From NCBI GenBank assembly GCA_018675575.1, contig JABGXW010000108.1:1-64000 (forward strand): 64,000 nt of DNA. Direction: 5' to 3'. The stretch is from Bacteriovoracaceae bacterium (lineage in GTDB: Bacteria; Bdellovibrionota; Bacteriovoracia; Bacteriovoracales; Bacteriovoracaceae). The notes under the pieces are model-generated. The model had not been told where the DNA came from. It saw only the letters and a program-made list of their open reading frames with translations, and did no database searches. Positions 13,850-27,320 of the stretch are shown here, in pieces. Each line of letters starts with the position of its first letter. Within the stretch, counting starts at the first letter, position 1. Position numbers and translations under genes: made by a program.

Positions 13850-14572
13850 ATGTTTAAAAATGTTAAAGTCAAAAAAATAATAGTTCCAATCATGTTTTAT
13901 ATGGTTGGAACTTTTTTTGTTTTTAGATCTGTCCAAGCCGAGAATATCAATAATCTCAGACCTCCAAAACCTGCTACTCCGGTAGCTGTTGAAACTGAAC
14001 CTGAAATAGTACCTGCCAAGCCAATTCATAAAGATCCTCCTCCAGCGTCTATGATTAGAGAGCCTAGAATTCCAAACGGATTAAGAAAACATTCCTTAGG
14101 GTTGGGAATTGGACAAACTTCTTTATTTGGAGATTTTGAAGAGCTAGGTGAAAACAAAATTACACTCGATATCCTTTATACTTATTCTGCTAGTCATTCA
14201 TTTGACCTTACTATTGATCTTCACCATGATAAATACAGTTTCAAAGAACAATGGGTACAAACCTCAGGTTTAGCAATTGGAATCAAAGCAAAAGCTTATC
14301 AATTTGATGCTTTTGCGCCTTATGGTATTTTTGGATTTGGGTTTTATGCTCCCAGAGCTAAACGTCTTATTGATTCAGTCTATGTCACTTCCAAAGGAAA
14401 GCTAATATTTGGTTGGCACCTTGGAGCGGGAGCTGACTTAAAGCTCAATAATCATTTCAGTGTAGGAATTCAACTTCAGTACCATAATCCTTTTGATATA
14501 AAGCAAGAGATTGGTAGCGAAATTTCAGGAACCTACTCAAAAATGCTTATCACGGGCATGTATACTTTCTAA
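13850..14572 (+). CDS. Secreted outer-membrane beta-barrel-like protein
   Basis: 240 residues. A signal peptide (basic start, long hydrophobic core, cut after VQA near residue 30) is followed by a Pro-rich linker (about residues 37-80). The rest is roughly eight alternating strands (HSLGLGIGQTSLF, KITLDILYTY, FDLTIDLHHDKY and so on), ending in LITGMYTF with the C-terminal Phe expected of outer-membrane proteins. An OmpW/OmpX-size barrel is likely. It sits 55 bases after the PhaR-like gene and directly before the ATPase pair, so the three may be one transcript. Confidence 0.75.
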   Translation: MFKNVKVKKIIVPIMFYMVGTFFVFRSVQAENINNLRPPKPATPVAVETEPEIVPAKPIHKDPPPASMIREPRIPNGLRKHSLGLGIGQTSLFGDFEELGENKITLDILYTYSASHSFDLTIDLHHDKYSFKEQWVQTSGLAIGIKAKAYQFDAFAPYGIFGFGFYAPRAKRLIDSVYVTSKGKLIFGWHLGAGADLKLNNHFSVGIQLQYHNPFDIKQEIGSEISGTYSKMLITGMYTF

Positions 14573-14573
14573 A

Positions 14574-15383
14574 GTGGATCTTACTGCAACACCTCAACTA
14601 ATTATTATCACCGGTAAAGGTGGAGTTGGAAAAACTTCTGTTGCATTAGCTTTAACAAAACATCTTAAAGAGAATTGTAGAAATGTTCTTTATAGTAGCT
14701 TTGACCAATTAACCAATACAAACCTCTGCGAGAATTTAGAAATTCCTTTTTTTGAAATTACTCCAGCTGAAAGTGCCCAAATCTACGTAGGCAAAAAGCT
14801 GGGATCAAAGACTATAGCATCGTGGGTTATGAAAACTCCTTTTTTTAAGTCTCTATTTAATATGATTCCTGGACTTGGAATGGTTATTCTTATGGGTCAT
14901 ATTATAGAGAAGTTAGAAAAAGACCCTACCCTCACAATTATTTTAGACTCCCCTTCTTCTGGCCATGCATTAACTATGCTTGAATCAAGTCATAATTTTA
15001 AGGAGATGTTTGGATCTGGACTTATTGTTCAAGATATAGAAAGAATGCATGAATTTCTGTATCAAAAACAATTATTAAAAACTTATATAGTTTGTCTACC
15101 TACTTTGATGGCGGCCAATGAAAGTCTTGAATTAAGAGAGAGTTTTAAGCTTCTCGAAATTAATAGAGTAGAACTGATACTCAATGATCTTTTACATATG
15201 GCAGAAGAAATAAAAGATAAAGAAGAAGAACTACCCGATTTTCTCAAAGTAAAAGTTAATTTAGAAAAAGAAGTCGAGGCTGAATTTATCAACAATTTTG
15301 AACATGAATTACCTCATCTATCAGTACGAAACGAAATTGAAATGATTAATAAATTAAAAGATCTCGTGGGATCTTTATGTTGA
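14574..15383 (+). CDS. ArsA/Get3-family ATPase, first of a pair
   Basis: 269 residues from GTG 14574, which begins right after the preceding stop; the longer frame from TTG 14511 would lie inside the barrel gene. The deviant Walker A GKGGVGKTS with its signature lysine sits at about residues 14-22, and a later LDSPSSGHALTMLES segment is the ArsA-type switch II region (DTAPTGHTLRLL-like). The protein is shorter than classical ArsA and has no arsenic-operon neighbours. Paralogous ArsA-like pairs occur in other Proteobacteria and Actinobacteria, with unknown clients. It overlaps the next gene by seven bases, so they are translationally coupled. Confidence 0.8.
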   Translation: MDLTATPQLIIITGKGGVGKTSVALALTKHLKENCRNVLYSSFDQLTNTNLCENLEIPFFEITPAESAQIYVGKKLGSKTIASWVMKTPFFKSLFNMIPGLGMVILMGHIIEKLEKDPTLTIILDSPSSGHALTMLESSHNFKEMFGSGLIVQDIERMHEFLYQKQLLKTYIVCLPTLMAANESLELRESFKLLEINRVELILNDLLHMAEEIKDKEEELPDFLKVKVNLEKEVEAEFINNFEHELPHLSVRNEIEMINKLKDLVGSLC

Positions 15384-16432
15384 GATCGAAACCTATAGAA
15401 CTTTTTTGTGGTACAGGGGGAGTTGGTAAAACAACACTTGCCACTAGTCGAGCATTACATTTAGCGCACGAGGGAAAAAGAGTACTCCTCATCACTATTG
15501 ATCCAGCAAAAAGGCTCAAGCAGATTTTAAATCTACAAGACGAATCGAAAGGTGAAATTCAAACTGTTCCCCTAAGCATTTTTGATTATTTTAATGAGAA
15601 TGAAAAAACTTTCGATGCCCTTCTTATGTCTCCGCAAACGACTCTACAGAAAATGGATTTCGAAATGAGTTCGGCACCAGGAAAGACTGTCTTTGACAAT
15701 CCGATTATTCAAATTTTATCAAGACCGAATGGTGGGATGAATGAGATCATGGCAATAATTGAAGTTCAGTATCAACTGAGTACTAATCATTATGACACCA
15801 TTATTTTAGATACTCCCCCAGGAAAGCATTTTATAGATTTCTTGCAATCATCCCTCAAAATAGAGCATTTTTTTGATAAGAGCTTCGTTGAAATTTTCCG
15901 ATTTTTAGGAAAAAGATTTACTAAAAAAGGAGAGAAGGAATCAAAGGGACTGCTAGGACTGATTGTTTCAACAGGAGTGAAAAAGCTTCTTAGCTACTTA
16001 GAAAAGGTGACAGGAAAAGAGTTTGTGAATGTGTTTGTAGATGCTATCGCTGCGTTATACAAAAATCGAGAGCATTTCCTTTCAGCAATTAAGTTTGAGG
16101 AAAAACTGGGACAGATCTCCTTCTCGAATTGGTTCTTAGTTACTTCCGTTGAGCAATATAAGATAGATGAGGCCAGCAATTTCCATCAACAGGCTATTGA
16201 GTTTATGCATAATGACAGTTTCTTGGCCATAAACAAATGCCTAAGACCCTATTTGGAAGATTGGTATCCTGAAGATAAAGACTTTTCACATGTTAAAACT
16301 TCTATGCTAAATAGAGAGAATAAAATTAAAGATTTTGCCAAGGTACATTTTGACAAAATTTTAGATTTCCCAGAAGTCCTAGGCTCATCACCAACTCAAC
16401 ATGTCAGTGAACTAGCGACCAGCTGGAAATAA
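15377..16432 (+). CDS. ArsA/Get3-family ATPase, second of a pair
   Basis: 351 residues. The P-loop CGTGGVGKTT is near the N-terminus; the signature lysine of deviant Walker A proteins is replaced by Thr, unlike the preceding gene. LITIDPAKRLKQIL is the Walker A'-adjacent segment seen in ArsA-like ATPases, and IILDTPPGKHFIDFL is the switch II region. Members use ATP to drive conformational change in targeting or transport. The two products probably form a heterodimer, by analogy with the Get3 dimer and the two halves of ArsA. No export or arsenite genes adjoin. Confidence 0.82.
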   Translation: MLRSKPIELFCGTGGVGKTTLATSRALHLAHEGKRVLLITIDPAKRLKQILNLQDESKGEIQTVPLSIFDYFNENEKTFDALLMSPQTTLQKMDFEMSSAPGKTVFDNPIIQILSRPNGGMNEIMAIIEVQYQLSTNHYDTIILDTPPGKHFIDFLQSSLKIEHFFDKSFVEIFRFLGKRFTKKGEKESKGLLGLIVSTGVKKLLSYLEKVTGKEFVNVFVDAIAALYKNREHFLSAIKFEEKLGQISFSNWFLVTSVEQYKIDEASNFHQQAIEFMHNDSFLAINKCLRPYLEDWYPEDKDFSHVKTSMLNRENKIKDFAKVHFDKILDFPEVLGSSPTQHVSELATSWK

Positions 16433-21849: not shown

Positions 21850-22824
21850 TTATTTACAGAAATCAGTAGGGGAAGATGTATTAATTTTATGGGTCTGAAC
21901 AACTTGGCAGTCTTCATCAGATCTATAAACTGCAATAACAGAACACGCTGGTTTTATATTCTGTATTCTACTTTGTTTAAAGTTACGAGAGCATTGAAAG
22001 TATGATGATTTGTCCACACAAGCCCAATGCTTTCCTTCGCAATTGTATACAAGGCCTCTGCCTATAATTATGTAGTCAGGAGGTAGGGCGGCGGCCTTGG
22101 CACTTTTTGGTGTTTCCTTATCTCGCTTAATTTTCACAAGAGCATCACCGAGAGCAGATAAACCTTTTGTAGTATCGACTTCAGAATTAGTAGGAGTCGA
22201 TTCATCCAAATCACTTAAAAAAGAGTCCATAGAGCTATCATCTTCAGTTTCACCAGCGACTATCGTCTTTTCTACTGGCGATACTTCTGGAGTAATAATA
22301 GGCTCGGGGGTAATAACCGGCTCAGGAGTATTCAGCGGTTTAATGGGTTCTTCATTAATTGCAACATCTGGTACGACTTTTGAGGGTGGCTCATCCGTAG
22401 TTGCTTCAGGTACTTTTTCTACAACTTCGATTGCTGTAGCTTCAATTGTAGGCTCTACCTTCACTTCTTCAGTGTTCTTTTCTATCATAGGAACAGGTGT
22501 TGCTTTAACAATTTTAAGCTTTGATTTTTTAGGATTTTTTCTTTTTGATTTATTTCTTTGTACTTTTTTTCTCTCAGGGGGAGGGTCTTTCTGCATAACA
22601 ATATCTTCCAGGAAAATCCATGCAATCACAACGATGACGACTCCTCGAATGATCATGGTTTTCTTTTTAGCTACAGCATCCTCATCCCCCTCATCCTTAG
22701 GCTTCAAAGTCATGATACTGGTTTTCTCATCTTCGTCTTCATGCTCTTCATACTCTTCATCATCTTCATCATCTTCAGATTGACCCAGCATACCTTTAAT
22801 TTTACTTATTAAATCATCAAGCAT
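21850..22824 (-). CDS. Membrane-anchored Pro-rich protein of unknown function
   Basis: 324 residues. Residues 14-48 are extremely acidic, residues about 58-74 form one membrane span, then a strongly basic patch (RKKVQRNKSKRKNPKKSK) is followed by a long Pro/Val/Glu linker with repeats of TPEPVI/TPEPII. The last about 75 residues form a small Cys-rich module (GRGLVYNCEGKHWACVD..., six Cys in all). With an acidic cytosolic start, one span, an extended linker and an end domain, it resembles TonB or SPOR-type periplasm-spanning proteins in outline, though no motif of either was found. It starts four bases after the ATP-grasp gene, the last of the operon. Confidence 0.7.
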   Translation of the reverse strand: MLDDLISKIKGMLGQSEDDEDDEEYEEHEDEDEKTSIMTLKPKDEGDEDAVAKKKTMIIRGVVIVVIAWIFLEDIVMQKDPPPERKKVQRNKSKRKNPKKSKLKIVKATPVPMIEKNTEEVKVEPTIEATAIEVVEKVPEATTDEPPSKVVPDVAINEEPIKPLNTPEPVITPEPIITPEVSPVEKTIVAGETEDDSSMDSFLSDLDESTPTNSEVDTTKGLSALGDALVKIKRDKETPKSAKAAALPPDYIIIGRGLVYNCEGKHWACVDKSSYFQCSRNFKQSRIQNIKPACSVIAVYRSDEDCQVVQTHKINTSSPTDFCK

Positions 22825-22828
22825 TTAA

Positions 22829-23794
22829 TCATTCTACCTCATAAAGCCATGTTTTCAAATTACCAGGTGGGGAACAAGGAATTACCCCCTTTTTAGATTC
22901 CGGAGAATATATATTTTTGCCCAAAAAAGACCTCATATCCTTAAAAGTTCTGATTTGAATATTTTCAACATAAAGACCTCTTCCTCCAGAGGAATTGTTA
23001 AATAGTTCATACAGAGAATAGATAAAGTCTCCCATCGTTTTTCTATCATTAGCTTCAACTAAATAACGAATATTATTCTCATAGGTATAACAGTCTATTT
23101 GAATACTCTTTTTGACGCCTTTTAATTGATACTCTTTTGCAATTGCGATCAGAATATTTGAATCAAATATTTCCGGTAAGTTAATTATTTTCCCCCCCGA
23201 AAATTGCTTGCCATTTAAATTCTTTAATTCGACACAATAAAGAACTCCCTTCTCGAAACAAACTCTTATTCCAAAATCTTCTATCACGTTATGGTATGGC
23301 TCCAAGAGAAAAGGAGTTTCTGGAATATTATCTACATCATATAGACTTTGTCCCCTACCGCTCATAAGGTAAGGACTTTTCACTAGATATTTTTGATTAG
23401 GATTAAGCTCAGGAAGTTCTCCTGAACTATTGATAAAAAAGCTCATTTCAGTTAAGAGATTAAGGTTTTTTGCAATAGTAAATGAGAATTCTTTCGAATT
23501 TGTTATTCTTTTAGTATCGATGTCCTCGAATGAACCCCACCATGGAGATGCGGACAAATCAAATGGATATATCGCTATTTTTTTTTCTAAAATAGTTTCT
23601 AAGTAAGAAAGATATTCGGAATCATATTCTCTCCCCGTTGATAGATTCAACTCATTTTTCTCAGTAAAAAAGTAAATGAACTCGAATTCTTCACAAACTT
23701 TTTTATTTTTCCTATTTAGAGGATTATAAGCACTATCGAACAATTCAAATTCATAATCAATATTTACACGATGAGGATTCACTTTGAATCCCAT
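22829..23794 (-). CDS. ATP-grasp-like protein of unknown function
   Basis: 321 residues. The pattern fits an ATP-grasp enzyme: YLVKSPYLMSGRG (136-148) has the ATP-binding lysine K139 and a Gly-rich loop. LLEPYHNVIEDFGIRV near residue 170 matches the hinge and following basic/acidic strand, and YLVEANDRKTMGDF near 260 resembles the ExN metal-binding end. An ATP-dependent carboxylate-amine or related ligase is inferred; the substrate is unknown. It overlaps the DUF455 gene by 16 bases, and the two are probably made together. Confidence 0.6.
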   Translation of the reverse strand: MGFKVNPHRVNIDYEFELFDSAYNPLNRKNKKVCEEFEFIYFFTEKNELNLSTGREYDSEYLSYLETILEKKIAIYPFDLSASPWWGSFEDIDTKRITNSKEFSFTIAKNLNLLTEMSFFINSSGELPELNPNQKYLVKSPYLMSGRGQSLYDVDNIPETPFLLEPYHNVIEDFGIRVCFEKGVLYCVELKNLNGKQFSGGKIINLPEIFDSNILIAIAKEYQLKGVKKSIQIDCYTYENNIRYLVEANDRKTMGDFIYSLYELFNNSSGGRGLYVENIQIRTFKDMRSFLGKNIYSPESKKGVIPCSPPGNLKTWLYEVE

Positions 23795-24606
23795 GAATTT
23801 CTATTTGTTATATTAAAATCTGATTTATAATTTTTAATTTTATTTATAAAATGAGAATTTAATCCTGCCCTTTTTCTTAATTCACAATTAAAATTAATAC
23901 CTTTTGCTCTAGCTGGAGTTATCTTACCGGGCAGTAAAGATAAATAATGGTCCCATATATCTTTTTTAGATTTAGTCGAGAAATCATTTAAGTAGTTCCA
24001 GCCTGCGGCAACATGTCGCAACTCATCCTCTAAAACTATTTCAAGAATATTCGCTGTTTCAAAATCCTCACAATCTTTAAAGATCCCTTTATAATAATAT
24101 GCAAAATCCAAATTAGCAGATTCAAATGTTAGGCTCATCATGGCATGAAATGATTCTATTGTTGGGCAATCATGAATTTGTTTCCAAAAGAAGTCATTCA
24201 CTGGCAAATCTCCAAACTCTATTCCAAGGGATTCCATCCTTTGATTATAAAGAGTAAAATGCTTTTGTTCATCTCGAATGGTGGAAATCATTCCCTTTCT
24301 AAAATGATCTCCTGCTTCCCCCTGCAGGGGGTATTTAAGAATGGCCATGGCCATCATTTCTATAGCTAGAAGCTCATGATTAGCAAAGAAATGCAGAGCA
24401 ATGCCTGCACCTTCGATAGTAGCTAATTTATTCTTGGCAGGAAATTTCAGCTGCTTACTGGAAAAATTAATATTCTTATTCCTGCCAGGATTATCAATGA
24501 AAAACGAGACTTGAGTTTTATTTATTTCTGTGTATTTAAGAGGCTTTAATTTCTCTTCGAGTGTTGCTCCTTCAACAATGGATTGTGCTTGTTGAATAAT
24601 GTCCAA
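23779..24606 (-). CDS. DUF455-type ferritin-like diiron protein
   Basis: 275 residues of mainly long helices. Two ExxH pairs are seen, E113-H116 in RDEQKHF and E195-H198 in EDELRHVAAGW, with H77/E78 and E162 as further ligands in suitable helices. Length and motif order match DUF455, a ferritin-like family related to the tRNA hydroxylase MiaE; its general function is not settled. The TTG start lies two bases after the Suv3 stop, so translation is coupled. In this operon it could oxidise or hydroxylate a product made by the ATP-grasp protein or an RNA handled by the helicase; that is inference. Confidence 0.75.
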   Translation of the reverse strand: MDIIQQAQSIVEGATLEEKLKPLKYTEINKTQVSFFIDNPGRNKNINFSSKQLKFPAKNKLATIEGAGIALHFFANHELLAIEMMAMAILKYPLQGEAGDHFRKGMISTIRDEQKHFTLYNQRMESLGIEFGDLPVNDFFWKQIHDCPTIESFHAMMSLTFESANLDFAYYYKGIFKDCEDFETANILEIVLEDELRHVAAGWNYLNDFSTKSKKDIWDHYLSLLPGKITPARAKGINFNCELRKRAGLNSHFINKIKNYKSDFNITNRNSWDSK

Positions 24607-24608
24607 TT

Positions 24609-27224
24609 TTATCTCTTTCTTTTTCGTCTAGATGAATTCTTTTTACTACCTCTACTTTTATTTCTATCAGTCCCTTTTGATGAACCTGGTTTTGATGAGT
24701 TATCATTCCTTCGACTAGGGCGGGAATAACGACGCTGCTTGAAACAATCTTCACAAATTCTAAACTTTGTTTGATCTTCCAGTTTTCCACCACAACTTGA
24801 ACATTTTTCAATAATCTTATCCGATAGCATATTATTTAATTTTTCAACTGCTTTCATTTTATTTTCAAGAAGATCTTTCTCATCATAGAGGAAGTTTTTA
24901 TTATCAAAATGTCTAGAAAGCCATTGATACAATTCTGTACACTTGATTGATGTTTCTAAATAATCAATATCATCTGACGTATGATTAATAGGTTCATTTA
25001 AAATATCTTGGGCGGCGACATATCTTCCAAGTATGTAGATAAAGAATTGGACATGTTCAACAAGCCCAAGGTTCACTGGAGCGCAGGCAAATCCAAAGAT
25101 CTCAGAGTTACTAAGTGTTCCTTCCATATCTGCTTCTTCCACCATCTCAGAGACTTCAATCATTTCTGTGAGCTCTACACAGTAAAATGGCTTCTGAAAG
25201 GTCATGGTATTAAAAAGTCTTAAGAATTCAGAGAGTTTCAATTCTGGAAGATGGTTAGCTAAAAGAGCACCATTTACTTGTGCAAAGATATCGAGATCAG
25301 GACCGACCATACATTTTATTTTCTGATCTAATGTTGTTGTAATTGCCTCATTGATGTGGAAATATCCATCTTCTACTTTCTTAAGACAATTAACATAGCC
25401 AGTGGGAAATCGAAGATATCTTCCCGCTCTTCCTGCAATTTGTTTAATTTCTGAATCTGATATTTGAAATTCTTTTGAGTTAATATATTTGACAATAGTA
25501 GAGAATACAATTCTCTTTATAGGAAGGTTCATCCCCATTGCAATGGCATCAGTACTGACGATAATATCTGTTTCCTGATTATCAAACTTTCGGGATTGTT
25601 CTCTTCTTACTTCAGGACTTAGTCTCCCATATACAATAGAGACCTTAAAACCAAGTCTTTCTAAATCAGACTTGTATCTCAACGCATTTCTTCTTGAGAA
25701 GACAATTAAGGCATCTGATTTTTCTAATTCCCCTAAATTAAGAGCCTGTCTCTCAACTACGAGTTCTGTCATCCTTGAATATTCTTTTATGATGAGTTCG
25801 TCGCCACATAAATCTACGATTGTTTTCACTAAGTCGAGGACTGAAGGGTCTCCACAAATATGAACTTCTGTCGCGACAATATTTACTAAAGCTCTTGTCC
25901 AAGCCCATCCTCTTTGTTTATCTGTAATCATTTGAATTTCATCAATCACACAGCAATCAAATACTTCCGTAAGCTTTGCCATTTCAATCGTTGAAGAATA
26001 ATGAGTTGCATTCTCTACTTCAATAACTTCTTCACCTGTTAACAATGAAGTTTTTGCACCTTTTTGATTTAATGTATCGTACAGCTCTCCTGCCAATAAT
26101 CTAAGGGGCGCCAAGTAACATCCTTTTCCAGCTTGAGATAATGCATTAATCGCATGATAAGTTTTACCTGAATTTGTTGGGCCGATATGGTAAATAATCT
26201 TTCTTTTCATATCTCTTGCAACTGATTGGGTCCAAAATTCTCCTAAGTATTTATTCAAAATAGTTGAAGAGATATCTTTTCTTTTTAAAAGAGTTATTGA
26301 TTTTACTAACTTTTTAAATTCTCTTGCAATATACTTTTCTGCACGCCAGATATTTGATGAAATTTGAGTGAAGAACCTTTGGTACTCTTGGTCCGTGACA
26401 AAATCATCTATTAATCCTTCATCAATGAGAATACCTTTTAAATGAGGAATAAGTTTTTCTGAATGCCTTACAGCAATATAGGAAGGATAATTAAAGCTTT
26501 CTTTTATAATGCCTTTTACTTGATTTTCAAGCCTATTAAGAGTTGCTCTTTTCAATAAAAGCTTTACGGTATGAAACTTTTTATCCAGTTTTTTTTGCAT
26601 TTGAAGGTAGATATGATTTAACGAATCGATACTTTTATTGAGATTTTCTTCGAGTTCAACATGTGAAGAATTTATAATTTCTTTGCACTCATCAAAAATA
26701 AACTCACGTGTTCTGGCTCGAAAATCGGCAATACATCCTACACATCGACAATCTAAATCTTCGGTTTTAAGCTTTAAATGAAATTTCTCTTTAATGACAA
26801 TTTGTGACAATTGATGTTTTTCTCCCACGTCATCACACCATTCAAACAATGTCTTTTCATGCAGATCTAAAATATCTTTTGAAATTCCACCGTCTTGACC
26901 AAAGAAAAATAATTCTTTCTCTGGAAATAAGCAATCATCTAAGAAGCATCTATCTAATACTGAATTTCGATTAACGAATTCTGAGAAAGCTCCATACTCA
27001 TGTTTAAATAACGATAGGAGCGAAAGGTTTTTTTTGAAAAATTTTCTTAAATGAGTTTGAACTTTAGACAAAAAGATAAGAATAATTGTAGCATCTTCAA
27101 TTGATCTGACATAATCTTCTTCCTGGCTAAAGCCATTAATTTTTATAATTGTCTTTCTTTCTAAGGGTAATAATTCTTTAATTTTCTCAAAATCAGCAAG
27201 GTTAGGGATTTCTATATTGGCCAT
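24609..27224 (-). CDS. Suv3-family ATP-dependent RNA helicase
   Basis: 871 residues from ATG 27224 (a TTG lies three codons upstream). The N-terminal about 340 residues are helical with a CxCxxC cluster near residue 160. The helicase core begins at GPTNSGKT (348-355), then DEIQM (428-432), a superfamily 2 Ski2-like variant typical of Suv3, followed by STDAIAMGMNLP and QIAGRAGR. Near the end a zinc-ribbon (CSSCGGK then CEDC) precedes a basic Lys/Arg/Ser tail likely to bind RNA. Mitochondrial Suv3 unwinds RNA for decay; bacterial copies are scattered. It heads a four-gene minus-strand operon. Confidence 0.9.
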   Translation of the reverse strand: MANIEIPNLADFEKIKELLPLERKTIIKINGFSQEEDYVRSIEDATIILIFLSKVQTHLRKFFKKNLSLLSLFKHEYGAFSEFVNRNSVLDRCFLDDCLFPEKELFFFGQDGGISKDILDLHEKTLFEWCDDVGEKHQLSQIVIKEKFHLKLKTEDLDCRCVGCIADFRARTREFIFDECKEIINSSHVELEENLNKSIDSLNHIYLQMQKKLDKKFHTVKLLLKRATLNRLENQVKGIIKESFNYPSYIAVRHSEKLIPHLKGILIDEGLIDDFVTDQEYQRFFTQISSNIWRAEKYIAREFKKLVKSITLLKRKDISSTILNKYLGEFWTQSVARDMKRKIIYHIGPTNSGKTYHAINALSQAGKGCYLAPLRLLAGELYDTLNQKGAKTSLLTGEEVIEVENATHYSSTIEMAKLTEVFDCCVIDEIQMITDKQRGWAWTRALVNIVATEVHICGDPSVLDLVKTIVDLCGDELIIKEYSRMTELVVERQALNLGELEKSDALIVFSRRNALRYKSDLERLGFKVSIVYGRLSPEVRREQSRKFDNQETDIIVSTDAIAMGMNLPIKRIVFSTIVKYINSKEFQISDSEIKQIAGRAGRYLRFPTGYVNCLKKVEDGYFHINEAITTTLDQKIKCMVGPDLDIFAQVNGALLANHLPELKLSEFLRLFNTMTFQKPFYCVELTEMIEVSEMVEEADMEGTLSNSEIFGFACAPVNLGLVEHVQFFIYILGRYVAAQDILNEPINHTSDDIDYLETSIKCTELYQWLSRHFDNKNFLYDEKDLLENKMKAVEKLNNMLSDKIIEKCSSCGGKLEDQTKFRICEDCFKQRRYSRPSRRNDNSSKPGSSKGTDRNKSRGSKKNSSRRKRKR

Positions 27225-27280
27225 GTATGTCAACTCTCTTTATATGAATGTAGCATAATGGTAACAAAGAGAATCTCATA

Positions 27281-27320
27281 GGTAAAAAAATACCTCCTAA
27301 ATGAGGAGGTATTTCTTTTT
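27281..27320 (-). terminator. Rho-independent terminator after the M28 peptidase gene
   Basis: An 11-bp perfect stem (27288-27298 with 27304-27314), AAATACCTCCT against AGGAGGTATTT, with a five-base loop. Read on the minus strand it is followed by a T run. A T-rich stretch also follows on the plus strand, so it may work in both directions. Confidence 0.85.

Follow-up and report, generated by a model that had tools for sequence, protein, structure and literature searches.

The window analysed here is a 64,000-nucleotide (nt) stretch of a 3.7-Mb draft genome of a Bacteriovoracaceae bacterium (contig JABGXW010000108.1; C55 in our numbering). It contains overlapping genes for a ferritin-like protein of the DUF455 family and for an ATP-grasp protein. 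The two are read here, with the case evenly poised, as halves of one bifunctional ligase-oxidase, which would take an amino-acid or peptide substrate, build an amide bond on it and also oxidise it. The chances are similarly balanced that they represent an undescribed family of ferritin-like diiron oxidase/ATP-grasp enzymes, present in several phyla outside biosynthetic clusters, that makes a new amino-acid-derived metabolite or modification. By computation, the two genes are paired within the order and fused in other lineages; one half has the ATP-grasp fold with all of its catalytic residues, and the other a full set of diiron ligands.

The distribution of the two genes was surveyed in 57 genomes of the order, with genes in relatives called by open reading frame (ORF) and DUF455 matches weaker than an expectation value (E) of 1e-30 left out. 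Both genes are present in the same 47 genomes and neither is present in the other 10, an identical distribution that answers a check on co-occurrence proposed with the original prediction for this locus; in two of the 10 (G049 and G051) the contig ends at the helicase gene and absence is less sure. The genes adjoin in nearly all of the 47, the exceptions being G045, in which DUF455 is on another contig, and G038, in which an opposite-strand ORF lies between them. An overlap of 1–32 nt, found in 27 of the 28 genomes measured (the window included), suggests translational coupling. When genomes with and without the pair are mapped on a tree of the helicase from 37 genomes, no fewer than two changes are required, indicating joint gain or loss more than once; the independent events are few.

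Elsewhere in the phylum, in other families, the ATP-grasp profile matches part of a longer frame of approximately 600–800 residues, with DUF455 at approximately residues 1–260 and ATP-grasp at approximately residues 420–650. Such fusions occur in 15–17 genomes from several of these families. A genome-wide scan with one fusion as the query returned more than 547 relatives. Each of the 80 best is a fusion contained in a single ORF, and 56 of them carry the label Verrucomicrobiota. Further fusion records belong to Myxococcota, Bdellovibrionota, Latescibacterota, Gemmatimonadota, Handelsmaniibacteriota and SAR324, and the fusion extends to at least five phyla or clades beyond that of the window. 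Both sets of active-site residues are invariant in 78 fusions: the diiron ligands E79, E111/H114, E160 and E193/H196, and the ATP-grasp residues K440, E477, D485, D565, E583, N585 and R587. Structure prediction, recommended earlier for the pair, gave for a fusion one confident two-domain model, with a predicted local distance difference test score (pLDDT) of 93.4 and a predicted template modelling score (pTM) of 0.91. In a DUF455 tree, all 28 split genes form one clade with a Shimodaira–Hasegawa-like approximate likelihood-ratio test (SH-aLRT) support of 100, and there is a single change between the fused and split states, in either direction. The two overlapping genes of the window lineage and the one fused gene found elsewhere would encode the same enzyme. 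No relative of the fusion was found in phage records. A literature search on DUF455, PF04305, COG2833 and ferritin-like/ATP-grasp fusions, which covered the literature in part and leaves an earlier description possible, found no description of the pair.

The ATP-grasp identity of the 321-residue protein, guessed in the original prediction, is borne out by its modelled fold and catalytic residues, though no family library supports it: neither this protein nor the 324-residue product of the next gene matches a Pfam or NCBIfam family above cut-off. The AlphaFold2 model (pLDDT 80.7, pTM 0.80) adopts the ATP-grasp fold, with 283 matches in the Protein Data Bank (PDB) at E ≤ 0.001, and all 50 of the 50 matches listed are ATP-grasp enzymes. 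The best is a Streptomyces ATP-grasp peptide ligase (PDB entry 8ynd; E of 9e-12 and template modelling score (TM-score) of 0.69 by query length), followed by PylC, BesA (8yi6), PurK and PGM1 (3wvq). SAOUHSC_02373 (LdmS) is also among the fold matches, which ATP-grasp peptide ligases lead. PGM1 is of the peptide ligase type, BesA is an amino-acid/peptide ligase and LdmS joins L-Asp and L-Met. With amino-acid and peptide ligases as its structural kin, the window protein is predicted, probably, to form amide bonds. Its catalytic residues K139, E165, D173, D234 and E247-x-N249-x-R251 are invariant in an alignment with 40 fused homologues (A6), and include the nucleotide lysine (K139) and the metal-binding residues (D234 and E247-x-N249) of the ATP-grasp superfamily.

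Sequence comparisons of the ligase gave fainter signals. A profile built from 30 relatives (A1) matched PDB sequences weakly, nearly all of them ATP-grasp enzymes (PurK, PurD, PurT and synapsin; E of 0.03–0.9); the match outside recognisable ATP-grasp enzymes was the 1236-residue KLLA0E08119p. The LdmS family model matched a fusion (E of 8.6e-5; 21 bits against a cut-off of 475) and a Bacteroidota homologue (E of 8.4e-8), both far below cut-off, and did not match the window protein. The PreAtp-grasp match of a Streptomyces homologue (E of 8e-4) was likewise below cut-off. A single-sequence search of the genome contigs with the window ATP-grasp protein returned no related loci, and PDB sequence searches with single proteins returned nothing useful. 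The ligase resembles PGM1 (3wvq), 8ynd, BesA (8yi6) and LdmS (7r8q) in fold, in catalytic residue pattern and in having a domain before the ATP-grasp core. However, it shares 11–15% identity with them, reaches the cut-off of no family model and, unlike them, is fused or gene-coupled to DUF455.

The partner protein belongs to PF04305 (164.4 bits against a cut-off of 34.3) and has a complete set of predicted iron ligands, E78, E113-x2-H116, E162 and E195-x2-H198, in agreement with its earlier assignment as a diiron-type DUF455 protein. This E, ExxH, E, ExxH pattern occupies six positions that do not vary in an alignment of DUF455 proteins of the split, fused and rhizobial solo kinds (A7). A sequence search found no solved DUF455 structure. 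The DUF455 profile matches aldehyde decarbonylase, MiaE and ribonucleotide reductase R2 weakly (E of 0.02–0.6); DUF455 shares with them the helical bundle and the ligand pattern, but constitutes a Pfam family of its own. A relationship to MiaE had been put forward, and a weak match does exist (MiaE structure 8fhc against the DUF455 profile, E of 0.039; rhizobial DUF455 against PF06175, E of 0.0036 and below cut-off), but MiaE is one of several equally weak matches, and the window DUF455 protein did not match PF06175 in the profile scan. The resemblance of the DUF455 half is to ferritin-like oxygenases as a group and to none in particular. A second, much weaker match to the DUF455 profile, of approximately 165–255 residues, is present in many genomes of the phylum (G005, G017, G033, G047, G054 and others) and is possibly a separate ferritin-like family.

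DUF455 also occurs alone. In the Sinorhizobium and Qipengyuania records (L087 and L088), the solo gene is preceded by a peroxiredoxin gene and followed by an M23 peptidase gene. In many genomes of one family of the phylum (f6; L209, L210, L217 and others), its neighbours are yebC/TACO1, which is divergent, and genes for a pseudouridine synthase, a PTPS and a short-chain dehydrogenase, which are convergent. The ATP-grasp protein, too, has stand-alone relatives, annotated as hypothetical proteins, in Parabacteroides, Bacteroides, Streptomyces and Prevotella plasmid records (L082–L085); in Bacteroides and Prevotella, nifJ and a gene for an AAA ATPase are close by. Each half can thus be used alone, DUF455 in f6 and elsewhere and the ligase in Bacteroidota.

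In the bifunctional ligase-oxidase envisaged here, the ATP-grasp half would convert a substrate carboxylate to an acyl-phosphate and join it to an amine, probably one on an amino acid or a small peptide, as do its nearest structural kin (PGM1-type peptide ligases, BesA and LdmS). At the diiron centre of the DUF455 half, O2 would serve to oxidise what the ligase has joined, or a precursor of it, by hydroxylation, desaturation or some other reaction. The outcome would probably be a small metabolite or a modified peptide whose synthesis is tied to no obvious biosynthetic cluster. This reading is supported by a second ATP-grasp copy of the same family in G004 (contig C8; L201:5528–10501), which lacks DUF455 and lies in a compact cluster of four overlapping genes; the others encode a carbamoyltransferase, a glycosyltransferase and a 407-residue protein, and the cluster looks biosynthetic. 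The Streptomyces homologue likewise lies in a biosynthetic-looking cluster, among acyl-carrier, radical-SAM and condensation-domain genes.

Several points weigh against this reading. The solo DUF455 genes of f6 and the alphaproteobacteria imply that DUF455 has a function without this ligase, and the ligase is found alone in Bacteroidota. The scan had a fusion as its query, so that its 80 of 80 fused loci measure the spread of the fusion rather than its frequency. The 80 loci also have no conserved neighbours, Suv3 included, and hence give no pointer to the substrate. That same broad, context-free distribution would suit a housekeeping protein as the target, to which the ATP-grasp half would add an amino acid or a peptide tag while DUF455 oxidised a side chain, and RimK-type ATP-grasp enzymes do modify proteins. 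We nevertheless regard protein modification as distinctly unlikely: the nearest folds are ligases of free amino acids and peptides, not RimK, and no conserved target gene lies nearby. It is very improbable that the ATP-grasp half serves DUF455, for example in metal loading or maturation, with no substrate in common. Genomes of the phylum with the ATP-grasp gene do also carry DUF455, except for G191, where a contig ends, and the reverse is untrue, as for an accessory; but solo DUF455 exists without the ligase, the catalytic residues of the ligase are complete and relatives of the ligase occur without DUF455.

The four genes of the locus were found as minus-strand ORFs that abut or overlap, as first described (Table 1). 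The helicase and DUF455 genes are 2 nt apart, and the ATP-grasp and one-span genes 4 nt apart. The helicase has an alternative ATG start at 27224, the coordinate given in the original prediction. A palindrome with a T run lies just upstream of the helicase gene, so transcription may restart there. In the window, the helicase gene is probably cotranscribed with the pair, without being an obligate partner of it.

Table 1 Features of the DUF455/ATP-grasp locus in the window.
Feature	Position	Strand	Basis or remark
Suv3-type DExH RNA helicase, 874 residues from TTG	24609..27233	-	PF22527, E 2.9e-62; Helicase_C, E 2.2e-13
DUF455 ferritin-like diiron protein, 275 residues	23779..24606	-	PF04305, E 4.6e-48; core subunit 1
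ATP-grasp ligase, 321 residues	22829..23794	-	Predicted structure and PDB fold matches; core subunit 2
One-span protein, 324 residues	21850..22824	-	Alignment A3
Overlap of DUF455 3' end and ATP-grasp 5' end, 16 nt	23779..23794	-	
Terminator-like perfect 11-bp palindrome with T run	27288..27314	+	Between M28 peptidase gene and helicase gene

The Suv3 assignment of the helicase was correct, with DEXQc_Suv3 and helicase C domains, which it shares with Suv3 helicases, above cut-off; the match to the C-terminal SUV3_C domain lies below cut-off (E of 0.011; 16 bits against a cut-off of 27). The one-span, proline-rich protein with a cysteine module is also present as described. It comprises an acidic N terminus, a membrane span at approximately residues 56–78, a proline-rich linker and a C-terminal cysteine module (A3). 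This module, GRGLVYNCxxKHWACVDK or, more narrowly, GRGLVYNCxGKHWACVDK, is strongly conserved, and many of the order's genomes retain the protein.

Relatives within the order keep all four genes, which abut in the window, in keeping with the proposal of a single system formed by the helicase, the diiron protein, the ligase and the membrane anchor. The outcomes that would have refuted the original prediction, genes not conserved together in relatives or a 321-residue protein lacking the ATP-grasp fold, were not those observed. Suv3, however, is present in 57 of 57 genomes, with or without the pair, and lies directly upstream of the pair in most. The helicase and one-span genes belong to a long conserved chromosomal block, with genes for an M3 peptidase, an M28 peptidase, an HD-GYP protein and two cystathionine synthases (sulfur amino-acid metabolism), which persists where the pair is missing; a four-gene system is therefore only weakly indicated by shared order on its own. 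In G029, G039, G040 and G055, the one-span gene follows the helicase gene, the pair is absent and the surrounding genes are kept. Opposite-strand genes part the helicase from DUF455 in four genomes, and an opposite-strand class II aldolase-like gene (for example, L173:9675–10313) intervenes between the ligase gene and the one-span gene in 12 of 20 relatives, though not in the window. Fusions elsewhere lack helicase and one-span neighbours. Joint action of all four is hardly credible on these grounds. What survives of the linked operon is the DUF455/ATP-grasp pairing, which the fusions in other phyla back; the one-span protein looks like a neighbour of the pair, and the helicase like a neighbour rather than a partner.

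A role linked to RNA or translation, in which DUF455 would hydroxylate a nucleoside or ribosomal protein, the ATP-grasp enzyme would attach an amino acid and Suv3 would present the RNA, is unlikely in our judgement. The position of Suv3 would suit it, as would a Suv3 gene beside DUF455 in one genome of another family (L223; 35.9% identity over 529 residues), the yebC/TACO1, pseudouridine synthase and PTPS genes beside solo DUF455 in f6, and the faint similarity to MiaE. But Suv3 stays when the pair is absent, and outside the order L223 is the one locus, of approximately 120 with a fused or solo gene, that has a clear Suv3 nearby. The RNA-related genes of f6 are on the opposite strand and part of a general conserved gene order, DUF455 stands no nearer to MiaE than to aldehyde decarbonylase or ribonucleotide reductase, and the kin of the ligase act on amino acids and peptides. 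Of the two pathways originally suggested, RNA modification is thus poorly supported, whereas a small-molecule or peptide pathway better fits the kinship of the ligase. Under the ligase-oxidase reading, the place of Suv3 upstream would reflect ancestral gene order or expression.

Elsewhere in the window, two adjacent genes at 14511–16432, beside the cystathionine synthase genes, encode proteins that resemble ArsA/GET3-like ATPases by eye. PADLOC returned only generic helicase similarity for the window proteins, which gave no lead towards a defence system. An Rfam search around the operon found no RNA element.

Ligation coupled to oxidation has a precedent in mangotoxin biosynthesis, in which the heme-oxygenase-like diiron enzyme MboA acts with the ATP-grasp amino-acid ligases encoded by mboC and mboD (PMC13185094). 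Operons that combine an oxygenase-cupin with ATP-grasp proteins have also been described (PMC2922099). As in the enzyme proposed here, a diiron oxygenase in those clusters is partnered, in fact or by prediction, by ATP-grasp amino-acid ligases, and the product is of the amino-acid or peptide kind. The mangotoxin-type oxidase, however, has a heme-oxygenase-like fold and is encoded separately from the ligases within biosynthetic clusters, whereas here the oxidase half is a ferritin-like DUF455 protein, often fused to the ligase and in no cluster.

DUF455 has no assigned function and its ATP-grasp partner has no Pfam or NCBIfam family name; the fusion ties the two together and makes both halves testable in one purified protein. 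If the ligate-and-oxidise reading is true, diiron/ATP-grasp chemistry would take place on a new scaffold across Verrucomicrobiota, Myxococcota and Bdellovibrionota, in an enzyme easily missed because it lies in no biosynthetic cluster.

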